Source of the DNA: Spirochaeta sp.
GTDB lineage: Bacteria > Spirochaetota > Spirochaetia > DSM-2461
Length of the DNA stretch: 10,088 nt
Reading direction: 5' to 3'
Assembly (NCBI GenBank): GCA_030592625.1
Contig: JAUVIY010000072.1
Span: forward strand, 1-10,088
The notes below the pieces were generated by a model, which saw only the letters and a list, made by a program, of their open reading frames with translations, ran no database searches and was not told the origin of the DNA. The stretch's first letter is position 1. Each line of letters starts with the position of its first letter. The position numbers and the translations under genes were made by a program. Shown piece after piece: positions 2,822-10,088 of this stretch.

Positions 2822-2883
2822 CCGGAGCGGGACACGCAATGGCCGCAGGTCATACCGGTCACTTCTATCTCATACTTGTTCAT
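2812..2883 (-). pseudogene. copZ: Truncated copZ-type copper chaperone
   Basis: A 23-codon reading frame begins MNKYEIEVTGMTCGHCVSR and ends SGAK-stop. GMTCGHC is the Cu(I)-binding loop of heavy-metal-associated (HMA) domains, with C13 and C16 as ligands. CopZ chaperones are normally about 65-70 residues and carry Cu(I) to the CopA ATPase. Here only the first strand, metal loop and start of helix 1 remain. The ATG overlaps the copA stop (ATGA, 2880-2883) and has AGGA about 7 nt upstream, so it was the translationally coupled third gene of the csoR-copA operon. No frame downstream continues the HMA fold. The break coincides with the 68-bp palindromic element, whose GGCGAAATGA supplies the stop. 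Whether the short peptide is made or binds copper is unknown. Confidence 0.8.
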
Positions 2884-5093
2884 ATTCGTTTCCTGATCGT
2901 TATTGAATTAAGCACCACCCCGATGGAACTCAGGCTCATGGCCACCTCGGCAATAAGGGGATGAACCAGGGCCAGGGCCGCCGCCGGCAATGCAATAATG
3001 TTGTACACGAAGGCCCAGAACAGATTGCTCTTGATCGTCTTCACGATCAAGGAGGACAGGGTGAGGGCTTCGACGATGCGTCCCAGCCCCCCCCGGGTGA
3101 TGACAATGTCACCGGCCTCCATCGACAGGTCGGTACCTTCGGCGAGGGCGAAGCCCACATCCGCCGCTTTGAGAGCCGCCGCGTCGTTGATACCGTCTCC
3201 GCTCATGCCGACCCGCAGTCCATTCTGCTGGAATTCCTGAACGATCCGGAGCTTGTCCTCGGGACGGAGGTTTGAACGGACATCATCGGCGGGAATGCCC
3301 ACCAGGGCGGCCACGGCATGGGCCGTTCCCGGGGCATCGCCGGTAATCATCACCGGGCGGACACCCCTCTTTTTCAGGGCGGAAACCGCCGAAGCCGCCT
3401 CTTTTTTAACCGGATCCGCCAAAGTGATATGCCCGGCGACCCGGCCCTCGCGGCAGACTTCGATGAGGGTTTCACCCGGGGTGACGGTTGGAAGACCGCC
3501 TGCTCCGAGTTCACCGGCCGCTCGCTTTCCGGCCGCTCTATCGCCTGCCGCATTGTCGACTGCCGCATCAGCAGTCGGACGGCCCACCGAATAAAGGACG
3601 CCGTTCACCCGGCCCTCGATGCCTTCTCCGGCGGTTTCATTCACATCTTCCGGCATCGGCGTTGCGGCATCAGCAGCCCATTCCACAACGGCCCGGGCCA
3701 AGGGATGGACCGATAACCCTTCCAGGGCCGCCGCTGCCGCCGCATCATGGGCCTCCAGGGTAGATGAAGTAACAGCCGGGTGCCCCTCGGTGAGGGTACC
3801 GGTTTTATCGAAGAGGATAACGTCCAGGCTGCCGGCCACCTGCATGGCCTCGCCACCCTTGATGAGCAGGCCCCGCCGGGCCCCCAGACCACTTCCGACG
3901 CTCAACGCCATGGGAGTCGCCAGGCCCAGTGCGCAGGGACAGGCCACCACCAGCATGGACACCATGGCGAACACCGCCGTCGTCCACGGACCGGAATCCG
4001 CACGCCCCAGCATCGGCTGCATCGCCGGGTAGAATACCACCCAGGCCGCGAAAACCGCCATCGACAATCCGAACACCACCGGAACGAAAACCCCCGCTAT
4101 ACGGTCGGCCAGGGCCTGGAGGGGCACCTGCACTCCCTGAGCCTGTTCAACCAGAGTAAGCATTCTCGCCAGGAAAGCATCCTCCCCCGTACGGGTGACT
4201 TCGATTTCCAGCACACCGTTTTCCAGAACCGTTCCGCCGATCACCTCGTCACCGACAGTCCTGGCCGCCGGTAGGGGCTCGCCGGTCACCATGGCCTCGC
4301 CCACTGCACCTGAACCCGAGAGAATGCGACCGTCCAGGGGAATCCGTTCGCCGGTTCTCACCTGAAGCCGCATACCCATTTTCACCACTTCGACGGGAAT
4401 CTCCCGAACCGTTCTGCCATCCTTCCCGTCGCCCTGAAGCACTCGGGCGCTTCCGCCATCCATTGACATGAGAGCACGCAGATCCGCCCCGGCGCGCCGC
4501 CTCAGCCTGGCCTCGATATAGCGCCCGGTCAGATGAAAAGCCGGCAACATCGGCGCCAGGGCCCCGAATGAGCGAATCGGCAGACCGGCAAGGGCCAGGA
4601 TGGCCGTCACCCAGGCCGCAGCCGTTCCCAGGCTTACCAGGACGTCCATGTTCGCATGACGGTGGGTCAGCGCAATCCAGGCCCCTTTCAATATCATCCG
4701 GCCGGGGCCCAGAAGTACCCCGATACCGGCGATGGCCTCAAGAAGGGTCAGCCCGGGGAGGTGCACACCGGACATCTGTATCACCATCAGAACCATGGCG
4801 GGAATGGCCACCCCCCAGGCAACCAGAATGCGGCGCCCGGCAATACGGAAATCCCGTTCCACCTCGTCCTCACCCGGCACTTCCTCCAGTGGTTCGTATC
4901 CGGCCTTTTTCACCGCCGCGGCCAGATTGGTCCATTCAGACCGTCCATCGGTAACCGCATAAGCCTTGCCGTCGGTGAGATTCACTGAAACGTAATCTAC
5001 ACCGGGAACCTTCACCAGTTCCTTCTCAACAAATCGCACGCATGACGCACAAGTCATACCACCTACAGCAAAGCTAAAATGTTCAGATTCCAT
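2880..5093 (-). CDS. copA: Cu(I)-exporting P1B-1-type ATPase CopA
   Basis: A 737-residue inner-membrane pump that exports Cu(I) using ATP. One N-terminal HMA domain carries GMTCASC (C15, C18). The core shows MVTGEP (268-273) of the actuator domain, the transport motif CPC (385-387), the phosphorylated D429 in DKTGTLTEG, the nucleotide-contacting HP pair (H463, P464), and GDGIND (632-637). Y697-N698 and M719 with S722-S723 in the last two membrane helices are the other Cu(I) signature residues, so copper fits better than zinc or cadmium. Eight membrane helices are expected. Residues about 512-537 of the nucleotide-binding domain hold an odd Ala/Gly-rich stretch with repeated AAG(D/K)R-like units. 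The ATG at 5093 overlaps the csoR end by 11 nt, and the stop overlaps the truncated copZ start by 4 nt. One csoR-controlled operon is likely. Confidence 0.95.
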   Translation of the reverse strand: MESEHFSFAVGGMTCASCVRFVEKELVKVPGVDYVSVNLTDGKAYAVTDGRSEWTNLAAAVKKAGYEPLEEVPGEDEVERDFRIAGRRILVAWGVAIPAMVLMVIQMSGVHLPGLTLLEAIAGIGVLLGPGRMILKGAWIALTHRHANMDVLVSLGTAAAWVTAILALAGLPIRSFGALAPMLPAFHLTGRYIEARLRRRAGADLRALMSMDGGSARVLQGDGKDGRTVREIPVEVVKMGMRLQVRTGERIPLDGRILSGSGAVGEAMVTGEPLPAARTVGDEVIGGTVLENGVLEIEVTRTGEDAFLARMLTLVEQAQGVQVPLQALADRIAGVFVPVVFGLSMAVFAAWVVFYPAMQPMLGRADSGPWTTAVFAMVSMLVVACPCALGLATPMALSVGSGLGARRGLLIKGGEAMQVAGSLDVILFDKTGTLTEGHPAVTSSTLEAHDAAAAAALEGLSVHPLARAVVEWAADAATPMPEDVNETAGEGIEGRVNGVLYSVGRPTADAAVDNAAGDRAAGKRAAGELGAGGLPTVTPGETLIEVCREGRVAGHITLADPVKKEAASAVSALKKRGVRPVMITGDAPGTAHAVAALVGIPADDVRSNLRPEDKLRIVQEFQQNGLRVGMSGDGINDAAALKAADVGFALAEGTDLSMEAGDIVITRGGLGRIVEALTLSSLIVKTIKSNLFWAFVYNIIALPAAALALVHPLIAEVAMSLSSIGVVLNSITIRKRI

Positions 5094-5385
5094 GTCTGTC
5101 CAACACCATCATCATTTCATCGATGAGGGCATCGCCCTCTTTCTCTTCGGAGCGTATCGCATCGGCGACGCAGGACTCCACATGCCTTTTCAGGATACTC
5201 AAACCCGCCTTCCTCAAAGCCGACCGGGCCGCGGCAATCTGAGTGAGGATGTCGGGACAGTAGTTTTCGTCCTCCACCATCCTGATGATTCCCCTCACCT
5301 GACCCTCGGCCCGTTTGAGTCTCTTGAGGGCATCGGTATTTACGCCGTCGGGACCTTTCTTCGAGATATGACATGCTTTGTCCAA
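5083..5385 (-). CDS. csoR: CsoR-family copper-sensing repressor
   Basis: A 100-residue all-helical repressor of the CsoR/RcnR family. The motif LKRLKRAEGQVRGI at about 20-33 is the family hallmark. The Cu(I) ligand triad is complete: C43 in YCPDIL, then H68 and C72 in RHVESC. This Cys-His-Cys set separates copper sensors from nickel and persulfide sensors. Apo-CsoR binds its operator and Cu(I) releases it, which fits the copA gene that follows and the operator at 5407-5423. The start is TTG: an in-frame TGA lies two codons upstream and GGAG sits 6 nt before the TTG, so no ATG fits. Autoregulation of the csoR-copA operon is very likely. Confidence 0.93.
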   Translation of the reverse strand: MDKACHISKKGPDGVNTDALKRLKRAEGQVRGIIRMVEDENYCPDILTQIAAARSALRKAGLSILKRHVESCVADAIRSEEKEGDALIDEMMMVLDRHGI

Positions 5386-5406: not shown

Positions 5407-5423
5407 ATACCCCCGGGGGGTAT
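5407..5423 (-). promoter_or_regulatory. CsoR operator
   Basis: On the minus strand the site reads ATACCCCCCGGGGGTAT, the G/C-tract pseudo-palindrome flanked by TA typical of CsoR operators. It ends 21 nt before the csoR TTG and lies about where transcription should start, just downstream of the -10 box. Binding there would block the promoter, which fits repression relieved by Cu(I). Confidence 0.88.
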
Positions 5424-5456: not shown

Positions 5457-5480
5457 ATATTTGTTGACCTCCGAAGGTGT

Positions 5481-5503
5481 TTCGGGGTTATTCCTACCCC
5501 GAA
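5481..5503. promoter_or_regulatory. Candidate enhancer dyad 1 for an NtrC-type activator
   Basis: TTCGGGGT (5481-5488) and ACCCCGAA (5496-5503) are perfect 8-bp inverted copies around a 7-nt spacer. The centre (5492) is about 124 nt upstream of the sigma-54 start predicted near 5616, in the usual range for enhancer-binding proteins. CCGAA at 5471-5475 can also pair with TTCGG at 5481-5485. It shares the core GGGT-N7-ACCC with the dyad at 5514-5528. Confidence 0.6.
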
Positions 5504-5513
5504 TCCCTGCGAT

Positions 5514-5528
5514 GGGTAATATTTACCC
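5514..5528. promoter_or_regulatory. Candidate enhancer dyad 2
   Basis: GGGTAA (5514-5519) and TTACCC (5523-5528) are inverted copies around TAT, again fitting GGGT-N7-ACCC. The centre (5521) is 29 bp from dyad 1 and about 95 nt upstream of the predicted sigma-54 start. Two similar sites roughly three helical turns apart are what NtrC-type dimers need for cooperative binding. Confidence 0.55.
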
Positions 5529-5588
5529 TTAAGTGTCTCTCTCCACCGGTATCCCAAGTCTCTGCAAGCTACTTAGCGTCGACCCGAC

Positions 5589-5605
5589 TTGGCACGGAAA
5601 ATGCT
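5589..5605 (+). promoter_or_regulatory. Sigma-54 promoter (-24/-12)
   Basis: TTGGCACGGAAAATGCT matches the RpoN consensus TTGGCAC-N5-TTGC(A/T) at all but one position. The invariant GG (5591-5592) and GC (5603-5604) are separated by exactly 10 bases. Start of transcription is expected near 5616, giving a leader of about 28 nt to the ATG at 5644. Such promoters need an NtrC-family ATPase, and one is encoded at 9059. CCAAGTC at 5554-5560 is an inverted copy of GACTTGG overlapping the -24 box. Confidence 0.88.
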
Positions 5606-5643: not shown

Positions 5644-6156
5644 ATGAAACGTATTATCACAATCATGATGGTAATGGCTCTGGTCGGCGGCGCAGCCTTC
5701 GCCCGGGGAAACACAGAAGAGGCCAATAGCAATCGCCAGGGCTATAGATTGCAGGATTCAGGCGAAACAGTCGCTCTCACCGGTATCGTCGAAGAGATGG
5801 ACGGACATGTCGTTCTCAACAGCAATGGAAGTCTTTACTCTTTGAGCGCCCCGGGGTTCTACCGGGCCGGAGTTGAAATACCTTATGGAGAAACCATTGA
5901 GGTGAGAGGCACCGTGAATACCGAACCCTGTGACGATTGTGATCTGGATGCCGCCGGTCACATCTTCGTCAAGAATGCCATGGTGAACGGCGAAGAACTC
6001 GCCTTCGATAATGGCCGTAGACGCTTTGACGACAACAACAGTCGGGGCAAAGCCGACGACGAGAATCGCGGCAGAGGCCGGGACAATGCCGACGAGGACA
6101 GCACCCGGAGCGGACGCCGGTCCGATACCGGACGCTGGAATAATCCCGAAGCCTGA
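5644..6156 (+). CDS. Small exported OB-fold-like protein with charged disordered tail
   Basis: A 170-residue protein not recognised by name. Residues 1-21 form a signal peptide (MKR start, hydrophobic core, AFA before R22), so it is exported, probably to the periplasm. Residues about 42-122 alternate strands and turns in an OB-fold-like order: VALTGIVEEM, VVLNSNGSLYSL, a helix-like APGFY segment, ETIEVRGTVN, HIFVKNAMVNGEEL. A CDDCD motif (C96, C99) could bind metal or form a disulfide. Residues about 123-170 are almost entirely Arg, Asp, Glu, Asn, Gly and Ser, a disordered polyampholyte tail. GGAGG at 5631-5635 sets the start. It lies directly behind a sigma-54 promoter and before a terminator, so it is probably a single-gene unit and the main target of the downstream kinase/regulator pair. 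A role in stress or electron transfer is a guess. Confidence 0.8.
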   Translation: MKRIITIMMVMALVGGAAFARGNTEEANSNRQGYRLQDSGETVALTGIVEEMDGHVVLNSNGSLYSLSAPGFYRAGVEIPYGETIEVRGTVNTEPCDDCDLDAAGHIFVKNAMVNGEELAFDNGRRRFDDNNSRGKADDENRGRGRDNADEDSTRSGRRSDTGRWNNPEA

Positions 6157-6173
6157 ACACCCTGAGGCAGATC

Positions 6174-6257
6174 GGTTCGGCTGGTTCGATTATTTCTTAA
6201 GGTCTAGGTAATTTCAAAAATCAAGCATTTTTGAAATTACCTCAGCCGAGCCTTTTT
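6174..6257 (+). terminator. Intrinsic terminator with a hairpin repeat in its loop
   Basis: GGTTCGGCTG (6174-6183) pairs with CAGCCGAGCC (6243-6252) as 10 bp with one G-U wobble, followed at once by TTTTT (6253-6257). That is a standard GC stem plus U-tract, 17 nt after the stop of the gene at 5644. The loop is unusually large (59 nt) because it holds hairpin repeat copy 2. With the inner hairpin folded the outer stem ends are brought together, so it could still work. Confidence 0.6.
6206..6242. repeat. Hairpin repeat, copy 2
   Basis: AGGTAATTTCAAAAAT (6206-6221), loop CAAGC (6222-6226), ATTTTTGAAATTACCT (6227-6242): a perfect 16-bp inverted repeat. The arms match copy 1 (66-102) except for the outermost left base; the loops differ. 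Flanks TCT and CAGC resemble those of copy 1. The whole repeat lies in the loop of the terminator at 6174-6257. Confidence 0.85.
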
Positions 6258-6258
6258 G

Positions 6259-6264
6259 TATAAT
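6259..6264 (+). promoter_or_regulatory. Possible -10 box for the NapH-like operon
   Basis: A perfect TATAAT directly after the terminator U-tract, 22 nt before the ATG at 6287. The -35 is poor: TTACCT with a 16-nt spacer matches three of six bases, and TTGAAA in the hairpin arm is 22 nt away, too far. The leader would be only about 16 nt but still includes AGGAGA (6275-6280). The operon may instead rely on read-through from the sigma-54 promoter. Confidence 0.4.
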
Positions 6265-6286
6265 GAGGATAAACAGGAGAAAATCT

Positions 6287-7120
6287 ATGAAAACCGAACG
6301 CTGGCGCAGGCCGGTTCAGATCGCATTTCTGGTGCTGATCGCCCTGATAGCGGTGAATCACACCCTCGCCGAAAACGGCAACCCCCTCCCCTTCGTACCC
6401 AAAGCATCCCTTCACGCCGTTTGCCCCTTCGGCAGTGTCGTCACCATATATAAACTGATTACCGAGGGCAGTTTCGTCCAGAAGCTCCACGAGTCAAGTC
6501 TGGTGCTCGGCATCGCGGTTCTGGCGGCTGCCGTTCTTCTGGGACCGGCATTCTGCGGATGGATCTGTCCCCTCGGTACTGTTCAGGAATTCGTCGCCAA
6601 AGCGGGACGGAAGATTCTGGGAAAACGCTACGGTAAGATTATCCCGAAGAAACTGGACGGCATCCTCAGATATCTGCGTTATGCGGTTCTCATCTGGGTG
6701 ATCGTCATGACTGCCATCAGCGGCAAGCTCATCTTCAGCGATTACGATCCATACTACGCCCTCTTTCATTTCTGGACAGGCGAAGTCGCCATCACCGGAT
6801 TCATAGCCTTAGGGCTGGTTCTGGCCCTGTCCCTCATCGTCGAGAGACCCTTCTGCCGTTATGCCTGTCCATACGGAGCATTCCTGGGACTCACCAATCT
6901 CTTTCGCATCATGCCGATCCGGAGAAACGCTTCCACCTGTATATCCTGCAGTAAATGCGACATGGCATGCCCCATGGGGATTACCGTATCGAATCAATCG
7001 ACAATCCGTGACACCAGCTGCATCAGCTGCCTTATATGCACATCCGATGCCGTCTGTCCTGTTCCGGACACTGTAGAAATCAAGGTTGTCCCCTACAGGG
7101 AGATGAAAGATGAAAAATAA
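6287..7120 (+). CDS. NapH/CcoG-like membrane 4Fe-4S polyferredoxin
   Basis: A 277-residue membrane iron-sulfur protein of the NapH/NosR-C-terminal type, which passes electrons between the quinone pool or cytoplasmic donors and membrane partners. Hydrophobic segments occur near 10-27, 72-88, 130-148 and 166-185. The family Cys motifs are C46 in HAVCPFG, CGWICPLG (C90, C94) and CRYACPYG (C190, C194). Two 4Fe-4S sites follow in the C-terminal domain: C218, C221, C224, C228 with normal CX2CX2CX3CP spacing, and C245, C248, C251, C257, where the last gap is five residues instead of three. I chose ATG 6287 and not 6263: AGGAGA lies 6 nt upstream of 6287, while 6263 falls inside a TATAAT box and has no ribosome-binding site. 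The end overlaps the next gene by 11 nt. The electron partner is unknown; nitrate-reductase genes are absent from the window, so napH itself is not claimed. Confidence 0.85.
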   Translation: MKTERWRRPVQIAFLVLIALIAVNHTLAENGNPLPFVPKASLHAVCPFGSVVTIYKLITEGSFVQKLHESSLVLGIAVLAAAVLLGPAFCGWICPLGTVQEFVAKAGRKILGKRYGKIIPKKLDGILRYLRYAVLIWVIVMTAISGKLIFSDYDPYYALFHFWTGEVAITGFIALGLVLALSLIVERPFCRYACPYGAFLGLTNLFRIMPIRRNASTCISCSKCDMACPMGITVSNQSTIRDTSCISCLICTSDAVCPVPDTVEIKVVPYREMKDEK

Positions 7121-7850
7121 AGCCGCTTTTGTCGCCTTCGTCATGGTGCTGTCCCTGGTCGCCGGGGTCGGGATCGCGAAAATCACCGGTTACTGGAAGA
7201 CCGAAAACAAAAAGGTTCCGATGAAAATCAGCCAGGGAGAATTCGAAGGTGAATCAGATCCCGATGACATCCGGGGCTCCTACAGTTTCGCCGATATTGA
7301 AGCGGCCTTCGGTATACCGCCTGAAATGACGGCCGCCGCATTCGGCATGACGGGAGACGATCCCGGGCAGATAAAAGCCAAGAACGTGGAAGAAACCTGG
7401 GGAGAAATGGAAGGCGGTGTGGAAGTCGGTACCGACTCGGTCAAGCTGTTCACGGCTCTCTGGACCGGCCTTCCTCATGATGCGGAAGAGACAACGGTTC
7501 TCCCGGCTGCGGCAGTTGAGATCCTGGAGACTTACCAGCGTATCGATTCGGCGAAGGCCGCCGAACTCCGGCTGACCGCTGTAGCACTCCCGAACGCGGT
7601 CGGGGGAGAAGCGGTGCCGGCTGAATCCGATCAATCCGACGATCATGAGATTCCCGACCGCATGATTCGGGGATTTACCACTTTCGGGGATCTGAAAGGC
7701 TGGGGCGTCACGGAAGAGATGTGGCAGGAGAAATTCGGTGAGTCCATGGGATCGAGATCCACAAGCATTAAGGATTGGGCCGAAGATACAGGCATTCCCA
7801 TGTCCGAGATAAAAGCCATCGCTCAGGTATTGGTCGACTCCGGAGCATAG
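7110..7850 (+). CDS. Membrane-anchored protein with an internally repeated domain
   Basis: A 246-residue protein without a name I can assign. Residues about 5-23 are a single hydrophobic segment, a membrane anchor or uncleaved signal, with the rest probably outside the cytoplasm. The body holds two related modules. The first starts IRGSYSF at 54 and runs through FGIPPEM to FG at 78-79; the second starts IRGFTTF at 186 and runs through WGVTEEM to FG at 209-210. They share the I-R-G, F, D, G, E-M and F-G positions. Between them lies LFTALWTGLPHDAEETT, followed by a helical stretch. From memory, similar helical modules follow 4Fe-4S or cytochrome-b-like membrane proteins in anaerobes; I cannot confirm this here. 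AGGGAG at 7097-7102 sets the start. Overlap with the polyferredoxin gene suggests a stoichiometric partner of it. Confidence 0.75.
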   Translation: MKNKAAFVAFVMVLSLVAGVGIAKITGYWKTENKKVPMKISQGEFEGESDPDDIRGSYSFADIEAAFGIPPEMTAAAFGMTGDDPGQIKAKNVEETWGEMEGGVEVGTDSVKLFTALWTGLPHDAEETTVLPAAAVEILETYQRIDSAKAAELRLTAVALPNAVGGEAVPAESDQSDDHEIPDRMIRGFTTFGDLKGWGVTEEMWQEKFGESMGSRSTSIKDWAEDTGIPMSEIKAIAQVLVDSGA

Positions 7851-7868: not shown

Positions 7869-9059
7869 ATGAGCAGCATGGGCGTAAAGCTTCGAACATT
7901 GTGGTCACTGTGGCCCGCAGTCCTTATATTGATTCTCATCCTTGTATTTTCGGCGGCCCTCCTCAGGGAAGGCCGCCTTCGCGATCTCGATATCGCCCGG
8001 CTCGGCTCTCTGGAAGCCGCGACGTCAATTACCGAAGATGTTATAGAAGGCCGCCCGATCGGCAACCCGGCGGATTCGGTAAGCGGCTGGGGGATTTACT
8101 CACCGGAAGGAACCCCCTTCGCCACATGGGGTACCGCTCCCGATCGATTATCACCGGTACCGTCAAATCAGGTTGTATCTGAAGAGATGGTTAACAAACA
8201 TCTGAGAACAGTCCGCACCCTGGCCTTCACCAGTGAGAACAGCAGTGTCCGGGGCCACGGTTACGGTATGCGCCGGCAGGTTCTCATCGATTGGGATTCC
8301 CGGAAAAACGGGAATCCGGAGGTATTGAGGATTGCGGGAGCCGCAGGTCTCACCCTTCTGGCCATATCTTTACTTGTTATGCAGCAGGTATCGGCCCGGC
8401 GTTTCGAAAAAAATCGCAGACTGGTCCAGCTCGGTCTGGCCGCCCGTACCCTCACCCACGAAATCAGGAACCCGCTTGGGGTCCTCAAAGCCCAGCAGGC
8501 CCTGTTGAGAAAAACCCTGCCTCCTGAATATACCGGAAATCTTACAGTTATTGCCGATGAAGTCGACAGGCTGAGCGCCCTCACCGATCGGGTCCGGGAA
8601 TGGTTGGCCGATCCCGCTGGAAATCCGATCGTGTTTGATATATCGGAGGAGCTTCACGGCATTCTGAAGCGCCAGCCCTGGGATATAAGGCTGGACTTAC
8701 CCGATCCGGGTCCTTACGTCAGGATGGATCCGGTACTCTTCTCCTCAGCCGTCATCAATCTCGTACGGAATGCCGTTGAGAGTCAGGAAGAGAAATCCGA
8801 GGTATCGGCGCCTGAGGTGATTTTGACATCACATGGTAAAATCGTTCGTCTCATCGTACAGGACCGCGGCAAGGGACTGCCCGAAGGAAATACTGAAGAC
8901 CTTTTCAATCCGTTTTTCACCACCAAAATCAAAGGCAGCGGCGTCGGCCTGGCCCTGGCCCGGCAGTTTATCGAAGCCGCAGACGGTACCCTGAGGATCG
9001 AGAACCGCAGTTCCGGTGGTGTCCGTACGATAATGGAACTGCCGAGGGAGAAGACTTGA
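7869..9059 (+). CDS. NtrB/AtoS-like membrane sensor histidine kinase
   Basis: A 396-residue two-component sensor. Helices at about 11-33 and 155-172 bracket an approximately 120-residue extracytoplasmic sensor region with no recognised fold and no cysteines. The cytoplasmic part is complete: H-box LTHEIRNPLGV with phosphorylated H197, N-box INLVRNAVES (N301), G1 DRGKGLP from D332, F-box NPFF (347-350), G2 GSGVGL (356-361). There is no PAS or HAMP domain between helix 2 and the H-box, so the signal passes almost directly. It starts 18 nt after the preceding gene without a clear ribosome-binding site; M4 is an alternative start. Its TGA overlaps the regulator ATG by one base. This catalytic class usually pairs with NtrC-type regulators, as here. 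Confidence 0.9.
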   Translation: MSSMGVKLRTLWSLWPAVLILILILVFSAALLREGRLRDLDIARLGSLEAATSITEDVIEGRPIGNPADSVSGWGIYSPEGTPFATWGTAPDRLSPVPSNQVVSEEMVNKHLRTVRTLAFTSENSSVRGHGYGMRRQVLIDWDSRKNGNPEVLRIAGAAGLTLLAISLLVMQQVSARRFEKNRRLVQLGLAARTLTHEIRNPLGVLKAQQALLRKTLPPEYTGNLTVIADEVDRLSALTDRVREWLADPAGNPIVFDISEELHGILKRQPWDIRLDLPDPGPYVRMDPVLFSSAVINLVRNAVESQEEKSEVSAPEVILTSHGKIVRLIVQDRGKGLPEGNTEDLFNPFFTTKIKGSGVGLALARQFIEAADGTLRIENRSSGGVRTIMELPREKT

Positions 9060-10088
9060 TGCACGTACTCATCGTCGATGACGAAGACAATCTCCGGAAA
9101 ACCCTGGGTCAGTATCTATCCTTGGAAGGATGGGTGATAAGCGAAGCCTCGAACGGGATTTCGGCACGAAAGTACCTGGAGGAACAAACCTTCGATGCCG
9201 TCGCTCTGGATCTCCGAATGCCCGGAATGGACGGACTTGAGGTACTCGAGTGGATGACAAACGAAGGTCCCTCAGTCCCCGTAGTGATGATGAGCGCCTT
9301 CGGCGATGTGGGAGATGCGGTAAACGCCATGAAGGCCGGTGCCTCGGATTACCTGGTGAAACCCTTCGACCCCGATGAACTCATCATCCGGATCAGACGG
9401 GCCGCCGCTGCGGCAGGCCCCCGATGGGACGCCGTATCCGAAAGTGATGAAGAATCGGCTCCGATATCCCGGGATCCGGCCATGAAACCGGTTATAGCCC
9501 TGCTGGACAAGGCCGCTCCCAGCGACGCGACGATACTGATTACCGGAGAAAGCGGAACCGGCAAGGAAGTGGCGGCCCGGTACATTCACCGCAAATCCGA
9601 ACGGGTTCGTGGGCCCTTTATTGCCGTCAATCTGGGGGGCTTGCCTGAGAGCCTGGTGGAGAGTGAACTCTTCGGCTACGAAAAAGGGGCCTTTACCGGA
9701 GCCGATAGCCGAAAGATCGGATATTTCGAGGCGGCCAACGGCGGCACCCTGTTCCTTGACGAAATCGGAGAACTACCGGTGGCGCTGCAGGTGAAGCTGC
9801 TCAGATCGCTGCAGGATAAAAAGATTCAGCGCCTCGGCGGCACCGGCGTCATCCCGGTGGACGTCCGTATCATTGCCGCGACGAACCGGGATCTGGAAAA
9901 GGCCGTGGCCGGCGGGGCGTTCAGGGAAGATCTTTACTACCGGATCAACGTCATCAGAACAAATCTGCCCCCTTTGAGGGAACGTCCCGCCGACATCATC
10001 TATCTGGCAAAATTGTTCCTCGGCCGGCTGTCTGGAAAAGGGCGGACGGAGGCTGCTGAATTCTCGGTAGCGGCCCTGGATGTTCTGA
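9059..10088 (+). CDS. NtrC-family sigma-54-dependent response regulator (partial)
   Basis: The first 343 residues of a sigma-54 activator; the gene runs off the window. The receiver domain (1-115) has acidic D7-D8, phospho-acceptor D51 in [11 protein letters not shown]79 at the switch position and K101 in VKPF. The AAA+ domain has Walker A GESGTGKE (163-170), the sigma-54-contacting GAFTGA (210-215), Walker B TLFLDE (230-235), the sensor-like AATNRD and the arginine-finger region [11 protein letters not shown]. The segment usually written VNCAALPE or VNCGALPE reads VNLGGLPE here, so the common Cys is Leu. The DNA-binding domain lies beyond the edge. The ATG at 9059-9061 overlaps the kinase stop. 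With GAFTGA intact it should activate sigma-54 promoters, and the one at 5589 is the obvious candidate. Confidence 0.93.

Follow-up and report, generated by a model that had tools for sequence, protein, structure and literature searches.

Two dyads of the form GGGT-N7-ACCC, 29 bp apart, precede a -24/-12 promoter of the sigma-54 type ahead of gene 5644 in the window, the 10,088-nucleotide stretch of Spirochaeta sp. DNA analysed here (contig JAUVIY010000072.1), and the operon that follows includes genes for a sensor histidine kinase and an NtrC-family response regulator. We consider it highly probable that the response regulator encoded in the operon (gene 9059) uses the dyads as its enhancer sites, as part of a ZraR-like sigma-54 switch with a positive loop. 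On our best reading, the system is a ZraR-like, autoregulated sigma-54 switch dedicated to a single operon, whose target operon is uncharacterised. The features are collected in Table 1.

Table 1. Features of the sigma-54 operon, its control region and the divergent csoR-copA unit (positions in the window)
Feature	Position	Strand	Basis or remark
Copper-type P-type ATPase gene (copA)	2880..5093	-	Pfam, NCBIfam
CsoR-family metal repressor gene (csoR)	5083..5385	-	PF02583; best NCBIfam match RicR, below cut-off
Palindrome ATACCCCCGGGGGGTAT	5407..5423		beside minus-strand promoter-like site; outside the sigma-54 circuit
Distal dyad GGGT-TATTCCT-ACCC, GGGTTATTCCTACCC	5485..5499	+	candidate enhancer site 1, centre about -124
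Proximal dyad GGGT-AATATTT-ACCC, GGGTAATATTTACCC	5514..5528	+	candidate enhancer site 2, centre about -95
-24/-12 sigma-54-type promoter TGGCAC-GGAAAA-TGC, TGGCACGGAAAATGC	5590..5604	+	pattern match; kept in both orthologs
Gene 1 (gene 5644), 170-aa protein with export-signal-like start (by eye)	5644..6156	+	no Pfam or NCBIfam family
Strong stem-loop, copy of a dispersed palindromic repeat	6206..6242	+	between gene 1 and gene 2
NapH-like membrane protein with 4Fe-4S motifs (gene 2)	6287..7120	+	PF12801
246-aa family-less protein adjoining the NapH-like gene	7110..7850	+	no family match
Sensor histidine kinase (HisKA, HATPase_c)	7869..9059	+	Pfam
NtrC-family response regulator, proposed activator	9059..10087	+	PF00072, PF00158; contig ends before the Fis-type DNA-binding domain

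The original prediction of two dyads with the same core was borne out by their sequences and spacing, and the positions that it gave for their centres agree with ours if transcription starts about 12 bp past the GC of the -12 element. The intergenic region between csoR and gene 5644 consists of two back-to-back control regions, the right-hand one running from the dyads through the promoter to the gene. GGGT-N7-ACCC occurs twice in the whole window against 0.24 expected, and at least two copies were obtained in 5 of 200 shuffles; within the 258-bp intergenic region, two GRGT-N7-ACYC sites appeared in 0.03% of 20,000 dinucleotide shuffles. Single GGGT-N7-ACCC matches are nearly at background in the whole assembly (36 places vs 28 for the reversed pattern), and the window pair are the sole two of the 36 that lie close together. 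Because single dyads are common in the genome, the weight rests on the pair and on its conservation. A weak terminator-like stem at 5469-5487, which overlaps the distal dyad, was rejected as a feature, being one of seven such sites (3.1 expected) and having no counterpart in the alignment of the three upstream regions.

The promoter had been described as strong and near-consensus. The GG and GC of its two elements are correctly placed 10 bases apart and the site is conserved, but the -12 element reads ATGC instead of TTGC, and as a pattern the box is not above background, with 15 matches in the own genome vs 14 for the reversed pattern. Its weight therefore comes from conservation. Only one of these 15 boxes, the window's own, has GRGT-N7-ACYC dyads within 250 bp, and two others have looser single dyad matches only. 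A gene for sigma-54, rpoN, was not found in the own assembly (73% complete); it is present in 23 genomes of the family set, which numbers 26 with the own genome, among them G019 (partial), G021 and G023, and in 7 of 9 genus genomes.

Orthologous upstream regions that keep the promoter boxes and lose the dyads had been named as the outcome that would speak against the circuit. The alignment gave the opposite: both readable regions, from G019 and G023 of the same genus, keep the promoter, as ACTTGGCACG...TGCT with spaced GG and GC, together with both dyads. The distal dyad reads GAGTTATTACTACCC and GAGTCGTTCCTACCC in these two genomes, and the proximal dyad GGGTAATTATTACCC and GAGTCTTTTTTACCC; the sites fit GRGT-NNT-NNN-TACCC and are again exactly 29 bp apart. 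In 3/3 readable loci the spacing persists, as does a T at both position 7 and position 11, within surrounding DNA that has otherwise diverged; the distance from dyads to promoter is 61, 39 and 61 bp and so varies by roughly two turns of the helix. This conservation spans three species only. Chance palindromes beside a chance promoter match would fit the near-background frequency of single dyads and single -24/-12 boxes; with pair, spacing and promoter identical in three species, and a 29-bp pair in none of 20,000 shuffles of each of the three upstream regions, we give that explanation almost no credence.

The distribution of the pair follows that of the operon. Searching the 26 family genomes for the dyad pair, with no promoter required, we found it in three, each time at this operon, and the reversed pattern in none. 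An ortholog of the kinase (E <= 1e-45) occurs in four of the 26 genomes (G000, G019, G021 and G023), and in all four the NapH-like gene and its partner stand before it and the regulator after it. G021 is the kinase-bearing genome without a readable dyad region, as its contig starts inside gene 1. Because the dyads are kept in the orthologs and the pair co-occurs with the kinase, the reading as cognate enhancers is well supported. In the genome_contigs collection (GTDB, 84,980 genomes, which may not include the own genome), seven stretches contain the pair plus TGGCAC; a complete -24/-12 box together with the T's at 7 and 11 is seen in only two of them, those of Spirochaetaceae bacterium C14-11 and Spirochaeta sp. 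UBA2779 (this genus). The other five, four from Modestobacter and one from a planctomycete, were discarded because they have neither the -12 box nor these T's. We also discarded as noise the result of a wider pattern, TACCC-N24..26-ACCC-N36..66-box, which in 392 genomes of the phylum, a sample outside which G019 and G023 lie, matched the window and three isolated places vs two for the reversed pattern. Across nine genus genomes, an ACCC half-site with a box gave 17 matches, three of them with a GRGT left half, all at this operon; one further match, L125, was rejected as it passed just a looser test (AGGT). No second target of the circuit emerged from the own-genome box scan, the 26-genome pair scan or the half-site scan of the nine genus genomes.

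CsoR-type operators are rich in GGGT and ACCC. The cores of the dyads, which are located between csoR and gene 5644, share this composition, so that the dyads might be repressor operators, for example of the metal repressor of the divergent csoR-copA unit. We judge this very unlikely, since a separate palindrome, next to a separate promoter-like site (TTGACT/TATATT at 5456-5428 on the minus strand), is available to csoR, with a similar palindrome at locus L067, since the dyads remain at the G019 locus (L066, 12 kb fetched), which has no csoR-copA match, and since no dyad pair was found away from the sigma-54 operon in the 26 genomes. The palindrome, which we take to be the CsoR-type operator of csoR-copA, probably serves that unit together with the minus-strand promoter-like site. 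Given the lack of a csoR-copA match in the fetched G019 locus, the dyads travel with the sigma-54 operon. Further to the left, positions 155-2578 encode a protein of 807 aa in which two stretches are of the peptidase S49 family (signal peptide peptidase type).

The kinase and the NtrC-family activator predicted downstream were both recognised by Pfam, but the activator is cut at the contig end before its DNA-binding domain, which we took from the full-length orthologs of relatives. In L065 and L067 the orthologs match PF02954 as well and have the domain set of the NtrC family (receiver, AAA+ and Fis-type HTH). The recognition helix of their Fis-type domain is GITRKTLLNK, and the C-terminus of E. 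coli ZraR consists of GITRKTLLAK and four more residues, the two helices being identical at 9/10 positions. Of four E. coli regulators whose DNA-binding domains were set against this one, AtoC scored higher (93-106) than ZraR (70-79).

A regulator encoded elsewhere in the own genome, L020, has a related helix, VTRKTLGRK, and its DNA-binding domain scores about as high (98-109) against that of the operon's regulator as the AtoC domain does. L020 has orthologs (E <= 1e-130) in the same four genus genomes, G000, G019, G021 and G023, and could bind the dyads or compete for them. The dyads would then be enhancers for L020, or else for one of five other full-length sigma-54 activators or a fragmentary one, with the operon's own regulator acting elsewhere. 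We hold this to be improbable: orthologs or near-orthologs of L020 (46-53%) are also present in G002, G005, G006 and G007, which have no dyad pair, and the helix that matches ZraR at nine positions belongs to the operon's own regulator. In E. coli, moreover, most single-target regulators adjoin their targets, according to the accessible part of PMC8249747. The own activator L019 stood outside the domain comparison, and its C-terminal end was inspected. Kept in relatives and closely similar to the sites of a stress switch known from E. coli, the dyads probably serve as binding sites for the regulator that this operon itself encodes.

As a control we used 12 cousin regulators of the family (48-54% identity), which carry the helix SRRTI or TRRTI; the DNA fetched around them, which at L159 includes almost no upstream sequence, holds no dyad pair. 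A single dyad is present at 5/12 of these loci, that of L153 about 220 bp ahead of a box-like site, and single dyads therefore mean little. Eleven plasmid-borne regulators (two of them zraR) were hand-picked from 100 matches listed, and no dyad pair was found around nine with other helices. One of these nine, L168, has the helix GITRKTLWEK and no dyad pair nearby, which limits any simple helix rule.

The motif had been proposed as the recognition sequence of a regulator with no assigned regulon. By its sequence it is of a type already known, since it matches the dyads in zraP/zraSR spacers in its core, in its pairing and in the T's inside it. We found GAGTAAAAATGACTC and GAGTCATTTTTACTC 31 bp apart in the zraP-zraSR spacer of E. 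coli K-12, GAGTAAAAATGACTC and GAGTCATTTTTACCC 31 bp apart in that of Citrobacter, and GAGTAAAAATGACCC and GAGTCATTTTTACTC 33 bp apart in that of Klebsiella. GAGT-N7-ACYC pairs are thus present in 3/3 fetched zra spacers, all from one bacterial family, and since Citrobacter and Klebsiella each have an ACCC half-site, these are not foreign to zra spacers. When turned alike, the zra sites and the spirochaete dyads have the T's at positions 7 and 11 in common, and the layout of a ZraR-type enhancer, paired GRGT-N7-ACYC sites about three turns apart, is present by sequence. Outside the fixed core, five of the six sites show no more than a suggestive likeness to their E. coli counterparts (10-11/15, where random fillers reach 10/15 in 33% and 11/15 in 10%), and one site is clearly E. 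coli-like (13/15; random fillers 0.2%).

Besides the paired dyads and the near-identical helix, the E. coli ZraSR system has sigma-54 boxes 42 and 51 bp from the dyads, and its kinase and regulator are controlled from the same sites, as they would be here. In contrast to E. coli, the spirochaete dyads have a sigma-54 box on a single side, are spaced by 29 vs 31-33 bp and more often contain GGGT and ACCC half-sites, and the operon lacks ZraP and has other target genes, the product of gene 5644 matching no family in Pfam or NCBIfam. The sensor part of the spirochaete kinase is about 57 residues shorter and not alignable, convincing alignment with E. coli ZraS being limited to the kinase core, and its regulator is closer overall to AtoC. 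The NCBIfam ZraR model gave 311.8 bits against a cut-off of 760 for the truncated window protein, and the ZraS model 83.4 against 479. The best NCBIfam scores were those of AtoC for the regulator (375.5 bits) and AtoS for the kinase (101.5 bits), but both are below the curated cut-offs (714 and 646), and AtoC has the helix GISRRALMYK. At glnA the NtrC enhancer is likewise a pair of dyads, separated by about three turns and located ahead of a sigma-54 promoter, but its core is TGCACC-N5-GGTGCA and the helix of NtrC is GWGRNTLTRK. We rejected the identification of the regulator as ZraR itself, given the higher AtoC score and the absence of ZraP from the operon; because the AtoC domain is nearer, the scores lie below the NCBIfam cut-offs and L020 is similar, the regulator is better said to work like ZraR than to be ZraR.

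In the text available from PMC8249747, the dyads of the zraP-zraSR spacer are reported to be bound by ZraR, and gSELEX found this spacer to be essentially the single ZraR target; 25 more targets by ChIP are cited there (Rome 2018). The accessible part of PMC7657598 adds mgtA by ChIP-exo and refers to a ZraR consensus in RegulonDB. As far as the available excerpts go, ZraR-type genes under predicted sigma-54 promoters are discussed for Planctomycetota (PMC12316311), and the ZraR enhancer of Salmonella is listed as not known (PMC4987338). The open literature searched, represented mostly by listing-level records, yielded no description of spirochaete sites of this sort.

The target genes have few recognisable relatives. 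The product of gene 5644 has 19 relatives besides itself, with scattered weak Pfam matches among them, and the 7110 protein has 51 matches; no Pfam family is listed for any of either set. A sequence search of solved structures gave nothing convincing on the fold of either protein. A hairpin lies between gene 1 and the NapH-like gene in 4/4 loci (z -4.6, -2.7, -4.0 and -3.1; regions window 6157-6286, L065 160-252, L066 6698-6789 on the minus strand and L067 5444-5529). Its sequence differs between the window, L065/L066 and L067, and in L067 1/200 shuffles folded as well. Because a strong hairpin follows gene 1 in every locus, differential expression is hinted at, and the arrangement suggests gene 1 as the main product, with the rest of the operon expressed by read-through. 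In the window, the palindromic repeat GGTAATTTCAAAAAT-loop-ATTTTTGAAATTACC occurs at 67-101 as well as at 6207-6241, and it is found at least partly at the own-genome loci L087, L093 and L094.

The NapH-like gene and its partner are together in 15 of 22 other family genomes, with no kinase or regulator match within the fetched DNA. None of the 17 other NapH-like loci (L068-L084) has such a match within the fetched DNA or dyads ahead of a -24/-12 box; at L083 and L084 the NapH-like gene was matched in part and has no partner, and L073 ends inside the partner gene. Since elsewhere in the family they are paired with no such match in the fetched DNA, the two genes resemble a module that came under this control within the genus. 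The NapH-like and 7110-type proteins are encoded in one frame of about 500 codons at L080, L081 and L082, from three genus g6 genomes, which suggests that the two act together. By eye, no conserved metal-ligand cluster was seen in the sensor part of the kinase in the four sequences. Beyond the regulator, 3/3 loci that reach that far have a co-directional gene for a ZIP metal transporter (L065 4432-5262; L066, reverse complement, 9507-10337; L067 9854-10672; Pfam on L065 and L067). From the neighbouring genes, we would guess that the signal is metal, redox or envelope stress.

In the proposed mechanism, the kinase would phosphorylate the response regulator, whose dimers would occupy the two dyads, about three helical turns apart, and then oligomerise. 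The DNA would loop to bring them to sigma-54 polymerase at the promoter, where ATP hydrolysis would open the DNA. Gene 5644 would be driven strongly, and past the stem-loop the NapH-like ferredoxin, its partner, the kinase and the regulator would be expressed at a lower level, closing a positive loop; the circuit thus looks autoregulated. The sites would be of the type used by E. coli ZraR (GRGT-N7-ACYC pairs), read by nearly the same recognition helix.

We regard it as about evenly balanced whether the helix GITRKTLL-x-K and paired GRGT-N7-ACYC sites form a code kept between Gammaproteobacteria and Spirochaetota while sensor, targets and the remainder of the protein were exchanged; the code here would run an undescribed operon that combines an exported protein specific to the lineage with an electron-transfer pair of the NapH type and is probably an envelope device against metal or redox stress. 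The switch is otherwise of an ordinary two-component sigma-54 kind. For uncultured spirochaetes, the analysis turns an unassigned regulator into a testable circuit with defined sites, and the helix-to-site rule that it suggests could be used to predict, from sequence alone, the targets of other NtrC-family regulators.
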